A DNA stretch of 64,000 bases, from assembly GCF_013363995.1 (NCBI RefSeq), contig NZ_JABWGO010000004.1:558001-622000 (forward strand). Reading direction: 5' to 3'. A program made the translations under genes and the position numbers. How positions within the stretch are numbered: the first letter of the stretch is position 1; every line of letters starts with the position of its first letter. Below are positions 7,571 to 28,446 of this stretch, piece after piece. The stretch comes from Nonomuraea rhodomycinica (GTDB lineage Bacteria > Actinomycetota > Actinomycetes > Streptosporangiales > Streptosporangiaceae). Below the pieces are notes generated by a model. That model searched no databases and was not told the DNA's origin. It worked only from the letters and a program-made list of their open reading frames with translations.

Positions 7571-7621
7571 CGCTCAGTGATCGGTCACGGATCGTACGGG
7601 ACGTGTGTGAGAGGGGCCGGG

Positions 7622-9184
7622 ATGTCCGGCAGGCAGCACAGGGAAACGGAGATGGCGCGGCGCATCCGGGCCAGGGGTCTCGCCGCCGGCCGAACGCCCG
7701 CCCAGATCGCCGAAGAGATACACGAGGCATGCTCGCCTCAGTTCGGCACGACGCGGATCAAGGGCCATCGCCTCTCCCACGGCATCGCCCTGGCCGACGT
7801 CATCGAGCAGGTGCGCGCCCTGTTCGAACGCGACGCCAAGGCGCCGCCCGGCATCGGCGAGACGCTGCTGTCGGCGTACGAGAGCGGCCTGAAACGCCCC
7901 GGACCCGAGTACCTCCACTACCTGTGCACCGTCTACCGCGTCGAGCCCGCGGCCCTCGGCTACGACGGCCCGTGCATCTGCGGCCACGGCCACCGGGGGC
8001 CCGTCGCGGCGGCCTTCGACGTCGCGGAGGGCGCGCCCCTCTCGGTCGACACCCGGGAGCCGCGCATCAGGCCGTCCGGTGACGAGGAGACGCCGCCCGA
8101 CGGTCAGGAGGACGAGAACATCCTGCGCCACACCCTGCTGCAGCTCCTCGACAGCAAGTCCTCCTCCGTCAAGCTGGAGGGGCCGGCGCTCGGCGCCCTG
8201 GAGGGCATCAGGCGGCGCATGGACGAGACGCTGGTCTGCGCCACGGTCTCGCCGGCCATGCTCGACCAGTGGGAGGAGGTCACGCAGGCCTTCGGCCGGC
8301 AGTACACGACCACCGCCCCGCAACGGCTGCTGTGCGACGTGGCGCTGGAGCTGAGCGCCGTGCGCAACGCGCTCAACCGCCGCCAGCCGATCGACCTGCA
8401 GGAGCGGCTGTGCCGCATGGCCGCGCAGCTCGCCGGGCTCAGCGGCATGATCATGATCAACCTGGGCGACCACCGGCTGGCGCGCGCGTTCTTCCGCACC
8501 GGCCGCATCGCCGCCGACGAGACCGGCGACCGCGCGCTGCGCGCCTGGGTGACGGCCCGCGAGTCGCTGGTCCCGCTCTACTACGGCGACGCCCGCGAGG
8601 CGCTCAACCTGGCCAAGAAGAGCCGCGACCTGGCCGGCACCGTGCCGTGCGCCGCGCAGGCCATGGCGCCGGTCGTGGAGGCCCGCGCGCTGGCCATGCT
8701 GTCGGGCACCGACAGCAAGAAGGAGATCGTCGACCAGGCCAAGCGCGCGCTGGCCCGGGCCCGCAACGCCTTCAGCCACATCAAGGGCGACGAGCGCGAG
8801 GACATGGCTTTCGGCTACACCGAGCGCCAGCTCTACTTCTACCAGGGCGACGTGCTCACCAAGCTCGGGCAGACGCTGGAGGCCGAGGTGGTGCTGGAGC
8901 AGGCCCTGGACAAGTACCAGGACCACATCCTCGACCAGACGCTGATCAGGCTCGACCGGGCGCAGTGCCGCCTCATCGAGGGCGACGTCACCGAGGCGCT
9001 GCAGATCGGCACCGAGGCGCTGAGACTGGTCGGGCCCGAGTACCGCACCGAGTTCATCATGCGTCCCGCTCTCGCCTTCGAGCAGGCGGTCATGCAGCGC
9101 GACCGCAACCACCCGGGCCTGGCCGAGTACCGCGAGCAGCTGCACCAGGAGGCGCCCGCGAACGATCGAAAGGCCGGTGCATGA
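7622..9184 (+). CDS. XRE-family transcriptional regulator with TPR-like C-terminal region
   Basis: A 520-residue regulator. An N-terminal DNA-binding region (about 10-100) includes a helix-turn-helix stretch ending ALLSAYESGLKRPGPEYLHYLCTVYRV-like, followed by a CICGHGHRG segment that could bind a metal. Residues about 190-500 are all alpha-helical with TPR-like repeats (NLGDHRLARAFFRTGRIAADE, LYYGDAREALNLAKKSRDLAG). The ATG at 7622 has GAGAGGGG upstream. Its stop overlaps the GNAT start (ATGA), so the two are translationally coupled. The target is unknown; control of its own divergent promoter is plausible. Confidence 0.85.
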   Translation: MSGRQHRETEMARRIRARGLAAGRTPAQIAEEIHEACSPQFGTTRIKGHRLSHGIALADVIEQVRALFERDAKAPPGIGETLLSAYESGLKRPGPEYLHYLCTVYRVEPAALGYDGPCICGHGHRGPVAAAFDVAEGAPLSVDTREPRIRPSGDEETPPDGQEDENILRHTLLQLLDSKSSSVKLEGPALGALEGIRRRMDETLVCATVSPAMLDQWEEVTQAFGRQYTTTAPQRLLCDVALELSAVRNALNRRQPIDLQERLCRMAAQLAGLSGMIMINLGDHRLARAFFRTGRIAADETGDRALRAWVTARESLVPLYYGDAREALNLAKKSRDLAGTVPCAAQAMAPVVEARALAMLSGTDSKKEIVDQAKRALARARNAFSHIKGDEREDMAFGYTERQLYFYQGDVLTKLGQTLEAEVVLEQALDKYQDHILDQTLIRLDRAQCRLIEGDVTEALQIGTEALRLVGPEYRTEFIMRPALAFEQAVMQRDRNHPGLAEYREQLHQEAPANDRKAGA

Positions 9185-9669
9185 ACCTGAAGATCCGCCG
9201 TTACCGCTGGTCCGACCTGGACACCATCCTGGCGCTGCACCAGATCTGCCTCGCCCAGGTCGGCCTGTTCCCCGGTGACGGGGTCTACTACGACGACGAC
9301 TTCCCCCGCATCCAGGAGCTCTACCTGGTCTGCGGCGGCGACTTCCTCGTGGGCGAGGTGGACGGCCGGGTCGTCGCCATGGGAGGCCTGCGGCCCATCG
9401 ACTGCGGCCTGGCCGAGATCTGCCGGCTGCGCGTCCATCCCGACCACCAGCGGCGCGGTCACGGCGCCGCGATGCTGACCGCCCTGGAGCAGCGGGCGGT
9501 CGCGTTGGGCTTCCACAGCGTCCGCGGCGACACCACGCTGCGCCAGGAGGCCGCCCTCGCGCTGTACGCGCGGCAGGGGTGGCGGGAGATCTCCCGCGCC
9601 CGCGTCGGCGACCTCATCGTGGTGTACGGCGAGAAGCGGCTCGTGCCCGCCGCCGTCCTCGACGCCTGA
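9181..9669 (+). CDS. GNAT-family N-acetyltransferase
   Basis: A 162-residue GCN5-related acetyltransferase. The acetyl-CoA binding motif (CRLRVHPDHQRRGHGAAML, V/I-x-x-x-x-Q-R-R-G-x-G/A type) lies around residues 83-101, and a C-terminal ALYARQGWREI segment follows the fold's beta5-alpha4. The start codon overlaps the XRE stop, so it is probably made in a fixed ratio with the regulator. The substrate is unknown. A 21-bp-stem terminator follows. Confidence 0.88.
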   Translation: MNLKIRRYRWSDLDTILALHQICLAQVGLFPGDGVYYDDDFPRIQELYLVCGGDFLVGEVDGRVVAMGGLRPIDCGLAEICRLRVHPDHQRRGHGAAMLTALEQRAVALGFHSVRGDTTLRQEAALALYARQGWREISRARVGDLIVVYGEKRLVPAAVLDA

Positions 9670-9904: not shown

Positions 9905-11242
9905 ATGGCAGTCGTGGCCGCTCCCCGACCCCTCCTGGGAGCCGTGCTTCTGTTGTTCGTCAGCGCCGCATGGGGGTCGGCGTTCCCGCTGATGAAGGAT
10001 CTCATCGTCCGGTTACCGGTCGAGGACCTGCTGGCCGAGCGTTACGCCATCGCGGCGCTGACGCTCCTTCTCCTGCGTCCCGGCACGCTGCGGGGGCTTG
10101 CGTGGCGCACGTGGGGGCACGGGGTCGTCCTGGGGGTCATGTTCGGCGTCGGCCAGCTCGGGCAGGCCATCGCGCTGCACAGCCTGCCCTCGGCCGTGTC
10201 GGGCTTCGCCGTCGGGTGCAGCGTGATCTTCACGCCCATCCTGGCGCTCCTGCTGTTCAGGACGCACATGCCCGTCCGGGTGTGGGTGGGCGTCGCGCTG
10301 GCGGTGGCCGGCATGACGGTGTTCACGCTCCTGCGCGGCGTCGGGGAGGGGCCGATCTCGCTGCTCGCGCTCGGCGTCACGCTCGCCGCTGCGGCCCTGT
10401 ACGCCGGGCACACGCTGCTGCTGGCCCGGCTCACCCGCACCCGCGAGGGCTTCAACGCCTACGCCCTGACCGTCATCCAGCTGGCCACCATCGGCCTCAT
10501 GACGGGCGGCTACGCGGTCCGCGACGGGCTGAGCCTGCCGGCCGGTCCCTCCGACTGGGTCGCGCTGGGCCACCTGTCGGTGGTGTCGTGCGCGCTGGGG
10601 TTCCTGGCCCGCTCGTACGGCCAGACGCACGTGGCCGCCGTGCCGAGCGCGGTGCTCATGTCGTCGCAGCCGCTGTGGGTGGCGGGGATCGCGGTGATCT
10701 GGTTCCACGAGCCGGCGGACTGGAGCATGGCCCTCGGCGGCGGCCTCATGGGGGCGGCGATGCTGCTGGCCGTGCCGTCGCGCACGACCGAGTCCCCGCG
10801 CCCGGCGTCCGTCCAGCGGGTGGAGCCGCGGCCCGTGCTGGAGGAGGCGTCGCGCCGCAACCACCTGCTCGCCGTGTCACGCCAGGCGTCGATGCGGCTG
10901 GCCGACCTCAAGATCAAACGGGACGGCGGCCAGGCGAACGAGTCCGTCGAGGATCCCGTCGGGGCGGAGCAGCCGCAGGCGCCGTCCGTGTCGCCGGGAG
11001 TCGCTCCGGTGTGCGTCGACATCCAGGCGTGCCGGCTGCAGACGCATCAGATCAAGGGCAGCGGCCAGCCCAGCCTGGACCGGCTCATCCAGCGGGCGAC
11101 GATCATCGTCCGGGCCAGGAACCTGCCCGGCCCCGGCTGTTGCCAGTCGGTCACGCTGTCCGGTCGCTGTCTGTGCTCACTGATCGAGGAGGCCGAGAAG
11201 AACGGGGAGGCAGCCCGGCCGTGCTGGTTTCGGCCCGGCTGA
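9905..11242 (+). CDS. EamA/DMT-superfamily transporter with cysteine-bearing C-terminal tail
   Basis: A 445-residue protein. Residues 1-300 form a ten-helix drug/metabolite transporter with two EamA repeats (AAWGSAFPLMKDLI near the N-terminus; AVPSAVLMSSQPLWVAGIAVIWFHEP in the second repeat). EamA proteins usually end near 300 residues. Here a hydrophilic tail of about 145 residues follows, with seven Cys clustered at its end: CVDIQAC, GCCQSV, GRCLCSL, PCWFRPG. Codon choice in the tail still favours G/C at third positions, so it appears coding. Its role is unknown; metal binding or a redox switch is possible. The next operon starts 127 bp downstream. Confidence 0.82.
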   Translation: MAVVAAPRPLLGAVLLLFVSAAWGSAFPLMKDLIVRLPVEDLLAERYAIAALTLLLLRPGTLRGLAWRTWGHGVVLGVMFGVGQLGQAIALHSLPSAVSGFAVGCSVIFTPILALLLFRTHMPVRVWVGVALAVAGMTVFTLLRGVGEGPISLLALGVTLAAAALYAGHTLLLARLTRTREGFNAYALTVIQLATIGLMTGGYAVRDGLSLPAGPSDWVALGHLSVVSCALGFLARSYGQTHVAAVPSAVLMSSQPLWVAGIAVIWFHEPADWSMALGGGLMGAAMLLAVPSRTTESPRPASVQRVEPRPVLEEASRRNHLLAVSRQASMRLADLKIKRDGGQANESVEDPVGAEQPQAPSVSPGVAPVCVDIQACRLQTHQIKGSGQPSLDRLIQRATIIVRARNLPGPGCCQSVTLSGRCLCSLIEEAEKNGEAARPCWFRPG

Positions 11243-11251
11243 ACGGCGGGA

Positions 11252-11322
11252 AATCGCTGAATAAACAGCGCATTAGCTATTACCCACTTACTTATATGTC
11301 CCAAACCTTGATAATCGCTGAA
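11252..11322. repeat. Paired direct repeat AATCGCTGAA in the peptide/TPR promoter region
   Basis: AATCGCTGAA occurs at 11252-11261 and again at 11313-11322, 61 bp apart (about six helical turns). The second copy lies between the -35 and -10 elements. The first copy is part of an inverted repeat CGCTG/CAGCG (11255-11270). The pair is a candidate operator. Confidence 0.5.
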
Positions 11323-11335
11323 CTGGCCGAATAAT
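11308..11335 (+). promoter_or_regulatory. Promoter of the peptide/TPR operon
   Basis: TTGATA (11308-11313), a 16-bp spacer and AATAAT (11330-11335) lie in an AT-rich patch unlike the surrounding DNA. A start near 11342 would give a leader of about 27 nt containing GGAGGGG before the ATG at 11369. Confidence 0.65.
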
Positions 11336-11368
11336 GGTGGATTAGTCCCAACGGAGGGGTAGGACACC

Positions 11369-11443
11369 ATGAAGCGCATCGTCGTGCACAAGCCGGGCTC
11401 AGCGAAGCTCACGGGGACTGCGAGCGTCATCCACAAGGGGTGA
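11369..11443 (+). CDS. 24-residue peptide coupled to the TPR protein
   Basis: The peptide begins MKRIVVHKPGS and ends TASVIHKG; it is basic and has no Cys or Trp. GGAGGGG lies 10 nt before the ATG. The stop overlaps the start of the TPR gene (GTGA), so the peptide is translated first and couples to its neighbour. Its size, charge, strong binding site and dedicated promoter fit a precursor-like or signalling peptide, or a regulatory leader peptide. I do not recognise the family and no modification enzyme is adjacent. Confidence 0.6.
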   Translation: MKRIVVHKPGSAKLTGTASVIHKG

Positions 11444-13146
11444 CCGGGAGCGGTTCGCATCACCGGGTGGGAAGCGATCCGCCCGTCGAAACGGGGGCCG
11501 TGCGGCTGCTGATGCCGATGATCGACGGACACCGCCGGCCCCATGGCCCCTACACCGTCGCCTCCGCACTGCTGCACCACCTCGTGCCGGGCGTCCTGGA
11601 ACGTTCCCCGGAACTGGTCGCCGCCCACGACATCGAGATCAGGGCGGCGGCCCCCGGGCTGCGTCGCCTGGTCCCCGCCCGGCGCGTGAGCGTCGACGCG
11701 GCACTGCCCGAGGACGAGCGCATCCTCGTGCCCGCGCCCCGCCGCACGCTGCGGCTGGCCAACGGGCTCGCCGAGTTCGTCCGCGAGGCCGTGACGCCGG
11801 GACGCACCCTGGTCGTGTGCAACGGCGCCGAGACCGACCCGACGGACGCCGAACTGCTCGACGTCATGACCCGCCGCATCCCGCCCGGCGTGCTCACCGT
11901 CGTCGTGTACGAGGGCGGCCCCGAGCCGGCGCCGGACACCCGCGGCCCTGCCGAGCTGTGGCAGGTCGTGGACCGGTGCGTCCACGAGGGGTTCCTGCAC
12001 GCCGTGGCCGAGCTGGGCCCGCGCGGGCTGGAGGCGGCCGAACCGGGAGGAGAGCTGTGGTGGCGCTTCGCGCAGCGCACCGCCACGGCGCTCGGCGGCC
12101 TCGGCCGTAGCGAGGAGGCGCGGGAGGTGTGGGCGCGGGCCCGCAGGTGCAGCCAGGACCCGGCGGTCCACGCCGCCGCCGCGTACGGCCTCGCGATGCT
12201 CGACGCCCGGCACCCCGACCCGGCGCGGCGCGACCTCGGCCGGGCGCGGGAGTGGGTCAACGAGGCCATCGCCATCTCGACGCTGCTGCCCGACCCGTTC
12301 GAGCGGGCGTTCAAGCTGGGCTTCGACCGCAACGGGCTGGCGCTCGTGGAGCTGCGCGAGGGGCGGCCGGAGGCGGCGCTCGCGCTGGTGGAGTCGGCCC
12401 TGGAACTGGCCGGCGAGCTGGGGGAGCGGCATCCGCTGCACCGCCTGGTGCTGCACGCCAACCGTGGCCGGCTGCTCGCCGGGCTCGGCCGTACGAAGGA
12501 GGCGCTCGCCGAGTACACCGCGGCCATCGCCCTCGACCCCGGCTTCCCCGACCACTACCTCGACCGGGGCAACCTGCTGGCCCGGCTCGGCCTGCCGGAC
12601 GAGGCGCTGGCCGACTACGAGAGCGCCATCCGGGCCGGCCCGCCGATGCCCGAGGCGTACTACAACCGCGCCGAGCTGCGGATCTCCCGCGACGACACGG
12701 AGGGCGCGCTGGCCGACCTCGGGCGCGTGCTGGAGCTCGACCCCGGCTACGTGGACGCGTACATCAACCGGGCCGGGCTGCTGGCCGCCCTCGAACGCGA
12801 CGAGGACGCCTGGGCCGACGTGCGCGCCGGACTCGCGCTGGCCCCCGGCGACCCGCACCTGCTCGTGGTCCGCGGGCAACTGGAGACGGCCGCCGGCCAG
12901 CTGGAGGAGGCGCGCGCGACGCTCGACGCCGCCATCGCCCGGGCGCCGTGGCTGGCCGCGGCGTGGGGCAACCGCGGGGTGCTGCGGTTCGCGCAGGGCG
13001 ACGCCGAGGGGGCCGTGGACGACCTCGCCCAGGCGATCGGGCTGGACCCGCACCCCGACCTGTACGCCAACCGGGCGGTGGCGCTGCGCTCGCTCGGCCG
13101 TACGGCGGAGGCGGAGGCGGACGAGGAACGCGCGGCGGGAGGGTGA
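11440..13146 (+). CDS. Tetratricopeptide-repeat protein with uncharacterised N-terminal domain
   Basis: A 568-residue soluble protein. Residues about 20-200 form a compact domain (LLMPMIDGHRRPHGPYTVAS, then LVVCNGAETDPTDAELLDVM) resembling the inactive-looking ATPase/receiver region of actinobacterial TPR regulators. From about 200 to 560 there are roughly eight TPR units, the clearest being ALAEYTAAIALDPGFPDHYL, ALADYESAIRAGPPMPEAYY, ALADLGRVLELDPGYVDAYI and AVDDLAQAIGLDPHPDLYAN. The GTG start overlaps the stop of the 24-residue peptide gene. TPR domains bind peptides or proteins, so the upstream peptide is a natural candidate partner; this is inference. Confidence 0.85.
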   Translation: MTGSGSHHRVGSDPPVETGAVRLLMPMIDGHRRPHGPYTVASALLHHLVPGVLERSPELVAAHDIEIRAAAPGLRRLVPARRVSVDAALPEDERILVPAPRRTLRLANGLAEFVREAVTPGRTLVVCNGAETDPTDAELLDVMTRRIPPGVLTVVVYEGGPEPAPDTRGPAELWQVVDRCVHEGFLHAVAELGPRGLEAAEPGGELWWRFAQRTATALGGLGRSEEAREVWARARRCSQDPAVHAAAAYGLAMLDARHPDPARRDLGRAREWVNEAIAISTLLPDPFERAFKLGFDRNGLALVELREGRPEAALALVESALELAGELGERHPLHRLVLHANRGRLLAGLGRTKEALAEYTAAIALDPGFPDHYLDRGNLLARLGLPDEALADYESAIRAGPPMPEAYYNRAELRISRDDTEGALADLGRVLELDPGYVDAYINRAGLLAALERDEDAWADVRAGLALAPGDPHLLVVRGQLETAAGQLEEARATLDAAIARAPWLAAAWGNRGVLRFAQGDAEGAVDDLAQAIGLDPHPDLYANRAVALRSLGRTAEAEADEERAAGG

Positions 13147-27439: not shown

Positions 27440-28446
27440 TCGTCGGCGTCGCGCTCGCCCGGCCCGCCCCCGTGGTGGTGGCCGTGCGGGACGGCGCCCT
27501 TCTCCGGTCCGCGACCGCGCGCGCCGTCACCGGGACGGCGCGCGCGGTCTGCGTGGCCGCCGACCTCGACACGGTGCCGCTGGCGCCGGTGGCCGCGATC
27601 CGGGTGGGCGGCCCCTGCCCGCCGGCGCTCGGCCCGGCTGCGGGCCTGGGCGGTGGCGCGGCGGAGTCCACGGAAGCGGTGGGTCAGGGTGATGTCGCGG
27701 AGGCGGCGGTCCGTCCGCCCGCGGCCGTGATCGTGCGCGGCGGGCACAGCCTCACCGGCCGGCCGCTGGCCCCGCTCGACCTCGACGCGGTCCGCCGGTT
27801 CGCGGCCGGGTGCGGGCTGCGCGACTTCGCCGTCACGGCCACCGGCTCTCCCGTCCTGGCCGATCACGAGCTGGCCGTCGCCGCGGCCGTCGCGGCCGAG
27901 GTGCCGGGGGCGCGGATCACGCTGTCGTACGAGTTCGGCCGGCCGGGACTGCGCGAGCGGGAGCGCAGCGCGATCCGCAACGCCGCGCTCGGCCCCGGCG
28001 CCGGCCGCCTGGCCGACCGGCTGGCCCACGACTTCCCCGGGGCGCCCCTGTACTTCGCCCGCTCGGACGGCGGGCTGGTGTCCGCCCACTACTTCCGCCG
28101 CTACCCGGCGGCCTGTGACGGTGGACACGCCGTGAGCCTGGCCGCGGGCCGCACCGCCCTGGCCGGCGCCCCTGGGGAGGCGGAGGTGTCCGACGACGTC
28201 GTGGCGGCGTACGGGGCGACGCTCGGACGGCCCCAGGCGCGGGTGGAGCGCATCGTGCAGGCGCGCGGGCGCGCGGAGCTGGACCGGGCGCTCGCGGACG
28301 TCGGCGACGAGGCGCTGACCCGGGCGGTGAGCGCGGGGGCGGCGCCCGGCTCGGCCAGGATCACCGAGACGACCGTGAACCCGCTGTCCTACCTGCCCGA
28401 CGGCCTCTACCGGGTGAGGGTGACCGCGGAGGGAGGCCCGCCATGA
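27436..28446 (+). CDS. Degenerate hydantoinase A-like (HyuA N-terminal) protein
   Basis: A 336-residue protein resembling the first half of hydantoinase A/oxoprolinase subunits: VPGARITLSYEFGRPGLRERER corresponds to the conserved VSLSHE...REYERT segment, and PLYFARSDGGLVSAHYFRRYP to the VMQSNGGL segment of true HyuA. The N-terminal phosphate-binding GGTFTD motif and the whole C-terminal half are missing, so catalysis by the usual ATP-dependent mechanism is doubtful. Ala/Gly-rich insertions occur near 75-100. It overlaps the MFS gene (ATGA). It may be a substrate-binding or structural partner of the DUF917 protein. Confidence 0.7.
   Translation: MIVGVALARPAPVVVAVRDGALLRSATARAVTGTARAVCVAADLDTVPLAPVAAIRVGGPCPPALGPAAGLGGGAAESTEAVGQGDVAEAAVRPPAAVIVRGGHSLTGRPLAPLDLDAVRRFAAGCGLRDFAVTATGSPVLADHELAVAAAVAAEVPGARITLSYEFGRPGLRERERSAIRNAALGPGAGRLADRLAHDFPGAPLYFARSDGGLVSAHYFRRYPAACDGGHAVSLAAGRTALAGAPGEAEVSDDVVAAYGATLGRPQARVERIVQARGRAELDRALADVGDEALTRAVSAGAAPGSARITETTVNPLSYLPDGLYRVRVTAEGGPP

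Follow-up and report, generated by a model that had tools for sequence, protein, structure and literature searches.

The window analysed here is a stretch of 64,000 nucleotides from the actinomycete Nonomuraea rhodomycinica (contig NZ_JABWGO010000004.1, positions 558,001 to 622,000 of the forward strand), within which a gene for a 24-residue peptide overlaps the start of a gene for a 568-residue tetratricopeptide repeat (TPR) protein. The peptide gene recurs upstream of orthologous TPR genes in Nonomuraea and in further genera, and the pair, pointed out in the first-pass annotation of this DNA, looks like a real, undescribed peptide-handling system of actinomycetes. The features of the locus, in window coordinates, are:

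11308..11335, forward strand: promoter-like site TTGATA-N16-AATAAT (one in 11100-11600; mean of 0.1 in shuffles)
11353..11359, forward strand: Shine-Dalgarno-like GGAGGGG, with a 9-nt spacer to the ATG
11369..11443 (stop included), forward strand: 24-residue peptide gene, MKRIVVHKPGSAKLTGTASVIHKG, with ATG at 11369, 24 codons and TGA at 11441-11443 (identified from its sequence, its orthologs, the ratio of non-synonymous to synonymous change and its recurrence in Nonomuraea)
11440..13146, forward strand: 568-residue TPR protein, matching Pfam TPR families, whose GTG start overlaps the peptide TGA as GTGA

We refer to this locus type as type R and to the paralog type found behind ftsY as type H; type X is the third locus of the window genome, and type W comprises distant TPR loci with a 27-residue peptide (L124-L127). 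The overlap of the peptide stop with the GTG of the TPR frame, the promoter-like site at 11308-11335 and the basic character of the peptide (computed isoelectric point 11.3) had all been noted in the first pass and were verified here, as was the GGAGGGG before the 24-codon frame, although its spacer is 9 nt and not the 10 nt given before. The calculated mass of the unmodified 24-mer is 2516 Da. A site similar to the promoter (TTGNTA-N15/16-NANAAT) lies upstream of 31 of the 35 distinct Nonomuraea R-type peptides. Anatomy was nevertheless rejected as evidence of a real gene pair: the window contains 12 ATG frames of 18-32 codons preceded by a Shine-Dalgarno-like sequence, of which three overlap long frames (at least 200 codons). 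Besides the peptide gene, two more short frames of this kind overlapping long frames lie at 28443 (forward strand) and 24242 (reverse strand). It is thus conservation, rather than anatomy, that places the peptide gene and the stop-start overlap beyond chance.

The TPR protein of the window shares 96% identity with its counterpart in N. montanisoli and 95% with the one in N. roseoviolacea subsp. carminata. We surveyed 54 Nonomuraea genomes, of which one (G032) is without an R-type TPR, leaving 53 R-type TPR places; the peptide lies 71-131 nt upstream in 52 of them. In the single miss (G027) the peptide sits in the first 0.5 kb of contig C69 but the TPR gene on contig C79, so that the miss is probably a contig break. 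A 24-residue peptide precedes the TPR gene in 21 of 22 homologous loci (L009-L029), the remaining one being a Chloroflexi fragment with a 146-residue TPR match and no peptide (L030), and also in 29 loci (L031-L059); some species are probably present in both sets. The DNA pattern of the peptide was found in 60 of 150 genomes of the order, and a reversed control pattern matched in none of the genomes listed for this sample.

In counting substitutions, codons and residues, identical open reading frames or upstream regions entered a single time, and the set was restricted to 24-residue frames showing the leader pattern; length, P9 and G10 are therefore fixed by selection in the substitution and residue counts. 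Between the MKR-type (Nonomuraea) and MKK-type R peptides the proportion of synonymous change (pS) is 0.57 and that of non-synonymous change (pN) is 0.17, a ratio of 0.30. Synonymous change thus exceeds non-synonymous change, the comparison that had been named beforehand as the one on which the peptide could be refuted. By part, pN/pS between the R groups falls from 0.42 in codons 2-15 to 0.09 in codons 16-24; H peptides have a ratio of 0.45 overall, with 0.37 in the leader and 0.58 in the tail. His22 is present in all 81 distinct 24-mers. The R peptides end in VIHKG (33/37), AIHKG (3) or VLHKG (1), orphans with other ends being excluded, and the R-type peptide in other genera likewise ends in HKG. 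That the R-type tail hardly changes across many genera speaks for a common physiological function and not for an arms race. Outside Nonomuraea, the 90 nt before R-type peptides contain the motif AATA[CA]TTG in 23 of 32 distinct sequences, compared to 0.09 in shuffles; it is found in 6 of 51 H upstream regions and in none of 35 Nonomuraea R upstream regions, and a shared regulator is possible.

The overlap itself is also conserved. The last base of codon 24 together with the stop reads GTGA in 88 of 91 R-type occurrences (repeats included), ATGA in one and CTGA in two. The TPR frame is open from the overlap point in R-type loci of other genera, and one deposited protein (P0120; cf. L114) starts exactly there. 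Codon 24 is GGG in nearly all distinct R sequences because the TPR start overlaps the peptide stop: the third G of the codon doubles as the first of the GTG. Peptides without a TPR gene behind them occur at four R loci (L105, L116, L117 and L119) and at one H locus, behind ftsY (L225). Two of these orphans (L116, L117) end in GGCTGA and one (L119) keeps GTGA. Three of the four R-locus orphan tails differ from the usual end (IHEG twice, IHTG plus six extra residues once), hinting at relaxed constraint on the peptide once the TPR gene is lost.

The two partners were also searched for separately, with one profile of the TPR N-terminal domain and one of the peptide, in samples of 296 genomes drawn from the class; wherever genomes are listed, the two samples agree. 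These genome searches scored part of the first-look candidates (usually 11 per genome for the TPR profile, 28 for the peptide, and 4 for the protease described below). Strong matches to both profiles fell in the same 14 genomes (TPR domain E <= 1.7e-28, peptide E <= 2.8e-8). The peptide precedes 21 of the 22 strong TPR places, in four cases with an M50 protease gene between them, and is divergent in the other; 2 of 24 strong peptides are orphans. Weak matches, eight per profile (E of 8.8e-8 to 7.7e-6 for the TPR domain, 0.0017 to 0.009 for the peptide), had no genome in common. If the profiles were independent, identical sets of 14 would arise by chance at 3e-24, which is no true probability because 11 of the 14 genomes belong to one family. 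The remaining three come from as many further families, and each has a peptide-M50-TPR locus.

The window genome encodes two further relatives of the TPR protein, at 51% identity, and each has a peptide of its own. The paralog behind ftsY is accompanied by a 24-residue peptide, MKKVVVHKPGTVKPSGAAAPRHGH, and the third locus, an MFS-TPR operon, by a 27-residue one, MKRIVIHLPGTVRLTGAATPKHADPTR, encoded on the opposite strand 2.4 kb from the TPR gene. In Nonomuraea, the strict pattern finds a peptide at 24 of 54 H-type TPR places; 22 of the 30 misses were inspected and 21 of these carry a variant peptide with RPG for KPG (20, plus L217). The one inspected miss that lacks such a variant is the second TPR gene of a tandem: in one genome (G040, locus L231) a single peptide gene precedes two H-type TPR genes in a row and then an MFS gene. 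H peptides vary in their last two residues, the 42 distinct peptides showing 26 different pairs. Of 23 H-type loci compared, 6 have an MFS gene after the TPR gene, as does L002. At the third locus a gene of 343-420 codons, TPR-like by eye, lies directly before the peptide and is divergent from the MFS and TPR genes:

L224, 4960-5991: TPR-like gene before the third-locus peptide
L226, 4453-5715: the same
L228, 2660-3691: the same

The family extends beyond these paralogs. TPR relatives at 38-41% identity (type W, L124-L127) have a 27-residue peptide upstream in 4/4 cases, MKKMTIRRKSTQRLMSGARRLWIEWCW or a close variant. These peptides end in WIEWCW or WFEWCW. W-type TPR relatives at 74-79% identity are found in Micromonospora among the matches listed. 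In one locus (L168, 4255-6344) lasso-type PqqD-like and asparagine-synthase-like genes, recognised by eye, adjoin a W-type TPR gene; they are absent from the gene lists of the three other W-type loci (L167, L169 and L170) and were dropped as part of the W system. Two other distant TPR genes (L128, L129) have no peptide directly upstream; in these and in four loci from a search of the class (L160-L163) the order is peptide, RRE-like/M50 membrane protease, TPR (6/6), with peptides such as MKKIKVRKAGTVRLTTSAAIYATPLCWPV and MKKIVVRKPGTVRLTAMACYCYGCCCCGGRAAI. The peptides of these distant relatives share a common leader and differ in their tails. A profile of the protease, searched in 394 genomes, gave seven close matches, all seven with a peptide upstream and a TPR gene downstream; four of these loci had led us to the family and three were new.

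The protease has an invariant HExxH in the five sequences compared, and RTDLY is conserved too. Its named relatives, among 120 listed of 565, occur in Actinokineospora, Umezawaea, Amycolatopsis, Streptomyces and Kitasatospora and are mostly annotated as hypothetical protein; the protease of L161 is identical to a protein deposited for Actinokineospora spheciospongiae. The N-terminal domain of its structural model (mean pLDDT 84.7) aligns with the lasso peptide RRE TbiB1 in complex with a leader (5v1v_A; prob 0.91, TMt 0.66, E 0.91), which is suggestive of a predicted RiPP recognition element (RRE; RiPP, ribosomally synthesised and post-translationally modified peptide). At E <= 0.001 Foldseek found nothing for the protease model; TRP channels with prob ~0.1 headed its list, and the RRE row alone was used. 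Among 16 M50 homologues beyond the close seven, three (L178, L188, L193) have a short peptide with a KKL-type start (e.g. MKKLVVRKLEPIKTSANADCVPAAA), lying far upstream in L193, and the upstream scan found none for the other 13; the three are possibly a sister family. No NCBIfam family was found at E <= 1 for seven peptides and none for one protease, although very short queries may be under-detected, and no Pfam model reached its cut-off on these sequences. A Pfam PriS_C match to one peptide (E 0.044) is sub-threshold and was taken as chance.

The TPR protein of the window can be divided into two parts:

11506..11919, forward strand: N-terminal domain resembling the Walker-B part of STAND NTPases, without a P-loop motif (weak profile matches)
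11932..13143, forward strand: TPR superhelix, residues about 165-568 (AlphaFold2 model; TPR matches over 165-568)

The AlphaFold2 model has a mean pLDDT of 91.9. The first 229 residues have no Pfam match, the Walker A motif GxxxxGK[ST] is absent from the protein, and Pfam and NCBIfam scans found no helix-turn-helix (HTH) or effector domain in it. Five of the eight weak matches to the N-domain profile were inspected, and all lie in the Walker-B part of large frames that by eye are SARP/LuxR-type regulators. On this sequence resemblance the N-domain, which we take to merit the label STAND, may be a STAND-type domain that has lost nucleotide binding. Relatives of the protein are 495-679 residues long, among 120 listed of 696. 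A tree of 33 of the 38 chosen TPR sequences recovers R (97/98), W (100/100) and, inside H, X (100/100); the M50 group is weak (79/48).

The reading we favour, with somewhat better than even confidence, is that peptide and TPR protein form a dedicated pair, with the peptide as precursor or ligand, in which the leader is recognised and the tail acts, RiPP-like in the relatives. The basic N-terminal part (M-K-K/R-I-x-V-R/H-K-P-G-x-x-x-L) would be a shared recognition segment and the short tail, about residues 16-24 and ending VIHKG, the acting part. Peptide and TPR protein would be translated together via the stop-start overlap, and the TPR protein, with its P-loop-less STAND-like N-domain and TPR superhelix, would hold the peptide; most likely it acts as a carrier or receptor dedicated to this peptide and is produced in step with it. 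In the distant relatives the RRE-like/M50 membrane protease would recognise the same leader and cut it, as in a RiPP-type precursor system, and the window lineage may keep the peptide and TPR protein with any processing elsewhere. Binding of the peptide by the TPR protein, separate roles for leader and tail, processing and a product are all inferred. A precursor that is cut is favoured because the relatives have the protease, whereas for the window lineage either a ligand left uncut or cleavage by a general protease would fit, since no cutter is seen nearby. The first-pass interpretation is supported in part: the pairing of a conserved peptide gene with the TPR gene holds, while the alternative of a leader peptide and nothing more does not.

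More tentatively, and as a possibility rather than an expectation, the peptides may form an undescribed actinomycete class of precursor peptides with the leader MKKIxVRKxGxVRLT. The TPR partner would be a P-loop-less STAND derivative acting as a leader-binding carrier, the R tail VIHKG would have a housekeeping or signalling role, and the products of the RRE-M50 relatives would be diversified and often Cys- or Trp-bearing. Should the favoured reading be right, actinomycetes hold a family of peptide genes that has gone unnoticed along with its partner proteins because most gene finders do not pick up genes so short. It would offer a test bed for the handling of a short ribosomal peptide by TPR proteins outside Bacillota, and the leader profile and TPR N-domain, optionally with the RRE-like/M50 protease, would provide a genome-mining handle for new ribosomal products.

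Several observations weigh against a dedicated precursor or ligand pair. The tail of the R group is more conserved than its leader part, the reverse of the usual leader/core relation, and varies only across the whole peptide family and not within the R group. Peptides persist without an adjacent TPR gene at the five orphan loci, and the second TPR gene of the tandem H pair has no peptide of its own. The coincidence of the two profiles in 14 genomes is not independent, both because one family dominates and because the profiles were built from such genomes. Foldseek and VIA searches with the TPR model return generic TPR proteins (e.g. OGT, LGN), and the RRE match to TbiB1 has a poor E-value. Near the window peptide no processing or modification enzyme is seen, the neighbours being NsdA-like, GNAT, EamA and TPR genes; there is no RRE domain in the window and no RRE/M50 match in the window genome at E <= 1e-10 (4 of 75 first-look candidates scored). 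The statement in the first-pass annotation that no modification enzyme is next to the peptide holds within the window; in the distant relatives the RRE-like/M50 protease gene lies between peptide and TPR gene.

Among known systems, the likeness to RiPPs with an RRE and a leader protease lies in a short ribosomal peptide with a shared leader and a tail variable family-wide, and in the RRE-like/M50 fusion within the operon of the relatives. M50 proteases act in the epipeptide and pearlin pathways (PMC10885120). Here, however, it is a TPR protein that always accompanies the peptide, the window shows no modifying enzyme, and the seven peptides and one protease scanned reach no NCBIfam or Pfam model. 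FxSxx-COOH, RxD and acidic peptide-processing systems with TPR-bearing AP-ATPases, described in PMC7159879, similarly combine an actinobacterial small peptide, a metallopeptidase (here in relatives only) and an NTPase-like protein with C-terminal TPRs. They differ from the present system in its basic conserved leader, P-loop-less N-domain, M50-like protease with membrane helices and lack of an NCBIfam peptide match. No vWA or radical-SAM genes were noticed by eye in the locus gene lists, no search being aimed at them. The pair is not described in the available portions of PMC10885120, PMC12710340, PMC10075063, PMC7159879 or PMC8068269, and the terms TPR and M50 do not occur in that of PMC12710340. 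In open-access PubMed Central literature, which leaves subscription papers uncovered, no title among the matches listed names the system and six leader strings tried occur in no paper.

Of the other explanations, a signal-receptor pair of the RRNPP kind, in which the tail would leave the cell, be taken up again and be sensed by the TPR protein, survives best, and we regard it as unlikely. Many known RRNPP receptors carry an HTH domain, and neither this nor an effector domain was found in the TPR protein. A short peptide gene adjoining a TPR gene is common to both. In RRNPP systems the propeptide is secreted by way of a signal or an exporter; the 24-residue peptide lacks a hydrophobic stretch that could be such a signal, and MFS genes occur at some H-type loci and at the third locus. 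The R-type tail is nearly invariant across genera, unlike a diverging code. The 568-residue TPR protein lies outside the receptor criterion of 250-500 residues, and the host belongs to Actinomycetes, the known systems being described from Bacillota (PMC10075063).

It is improbable that the peptide is instead a structural subunit or lasting cofactor that fills the groove of the TPR superhelix unprocessed. The strict length of 24 residues, the start-stop overlap, the conserved R tail and the lack of a processing gene in the window would all suit such a role, but orphan peptides, the variation in the last two residues of H tails and the RRE-like/M50 protease of distant relatives do not. Least probable of all is a leader acting in cis, in which ribosomes that translate the short frame are thereby brought to the overlapping TPR start and the encoded amino acids are of little importance: GTGA or ATGA in 89 of 91 R-type occurrences and GGG at codon 24 in 60 of 62 distinct R sequences accord with it, but it is contradicted as a sole role, and with it the first-pass alternative of a leader peptide merely setting TPR translation, by the amino-acid conservation (pN/pS, His22), by H-type peptides that start 85-390 nt before the aligned TPR start and so mostly do not overlap it, by the four TPR-less peptides at the same locus and the H-locus orphan, and by the third-locus peptide on the opposite strand.

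Upstream of the peptide gene the window contains three further genes on the same strand:

7577..9184, forward strand: NsdA-family HTH/TPR-like regulator (NCBIfam NF053720), a syntenic neighbour
9181..9669, forward strand: GNAT-family acetyltransferase (the L119 homologue matches Pfam Acetyltransf_1), a syntenic neighbour
9905..11242, forward strand: EamA-family transporter (Pfam EamA), between GNAT and peptide in Nonomuraea

The GNAT gene was considered as a modifying enzyme dedicated to the peptide, a proposal weakened by the occurrence of GNAT relatives without it. In 11 loci besides its own (L254), a peptide is present in six, none was found in the 1.5 kb behind the GNAT gene in three (L257, L259, L264), and two Nonomuraea loci (L255, L256) are uninformative, as EamA or a contig end intervenes. 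Since relatives occur without the peptide, the GNAT gene was not treated as dedicated, and probably it is not. NsdA-like and GNAT genes lie upstream on the same strand in every R-type locus of at least 5 kb that was compared, including the four TPR-less orphan loci. The EamA gene is present in all 12 Nonomuraea R-type loci compared and in none of the other R-type loci.
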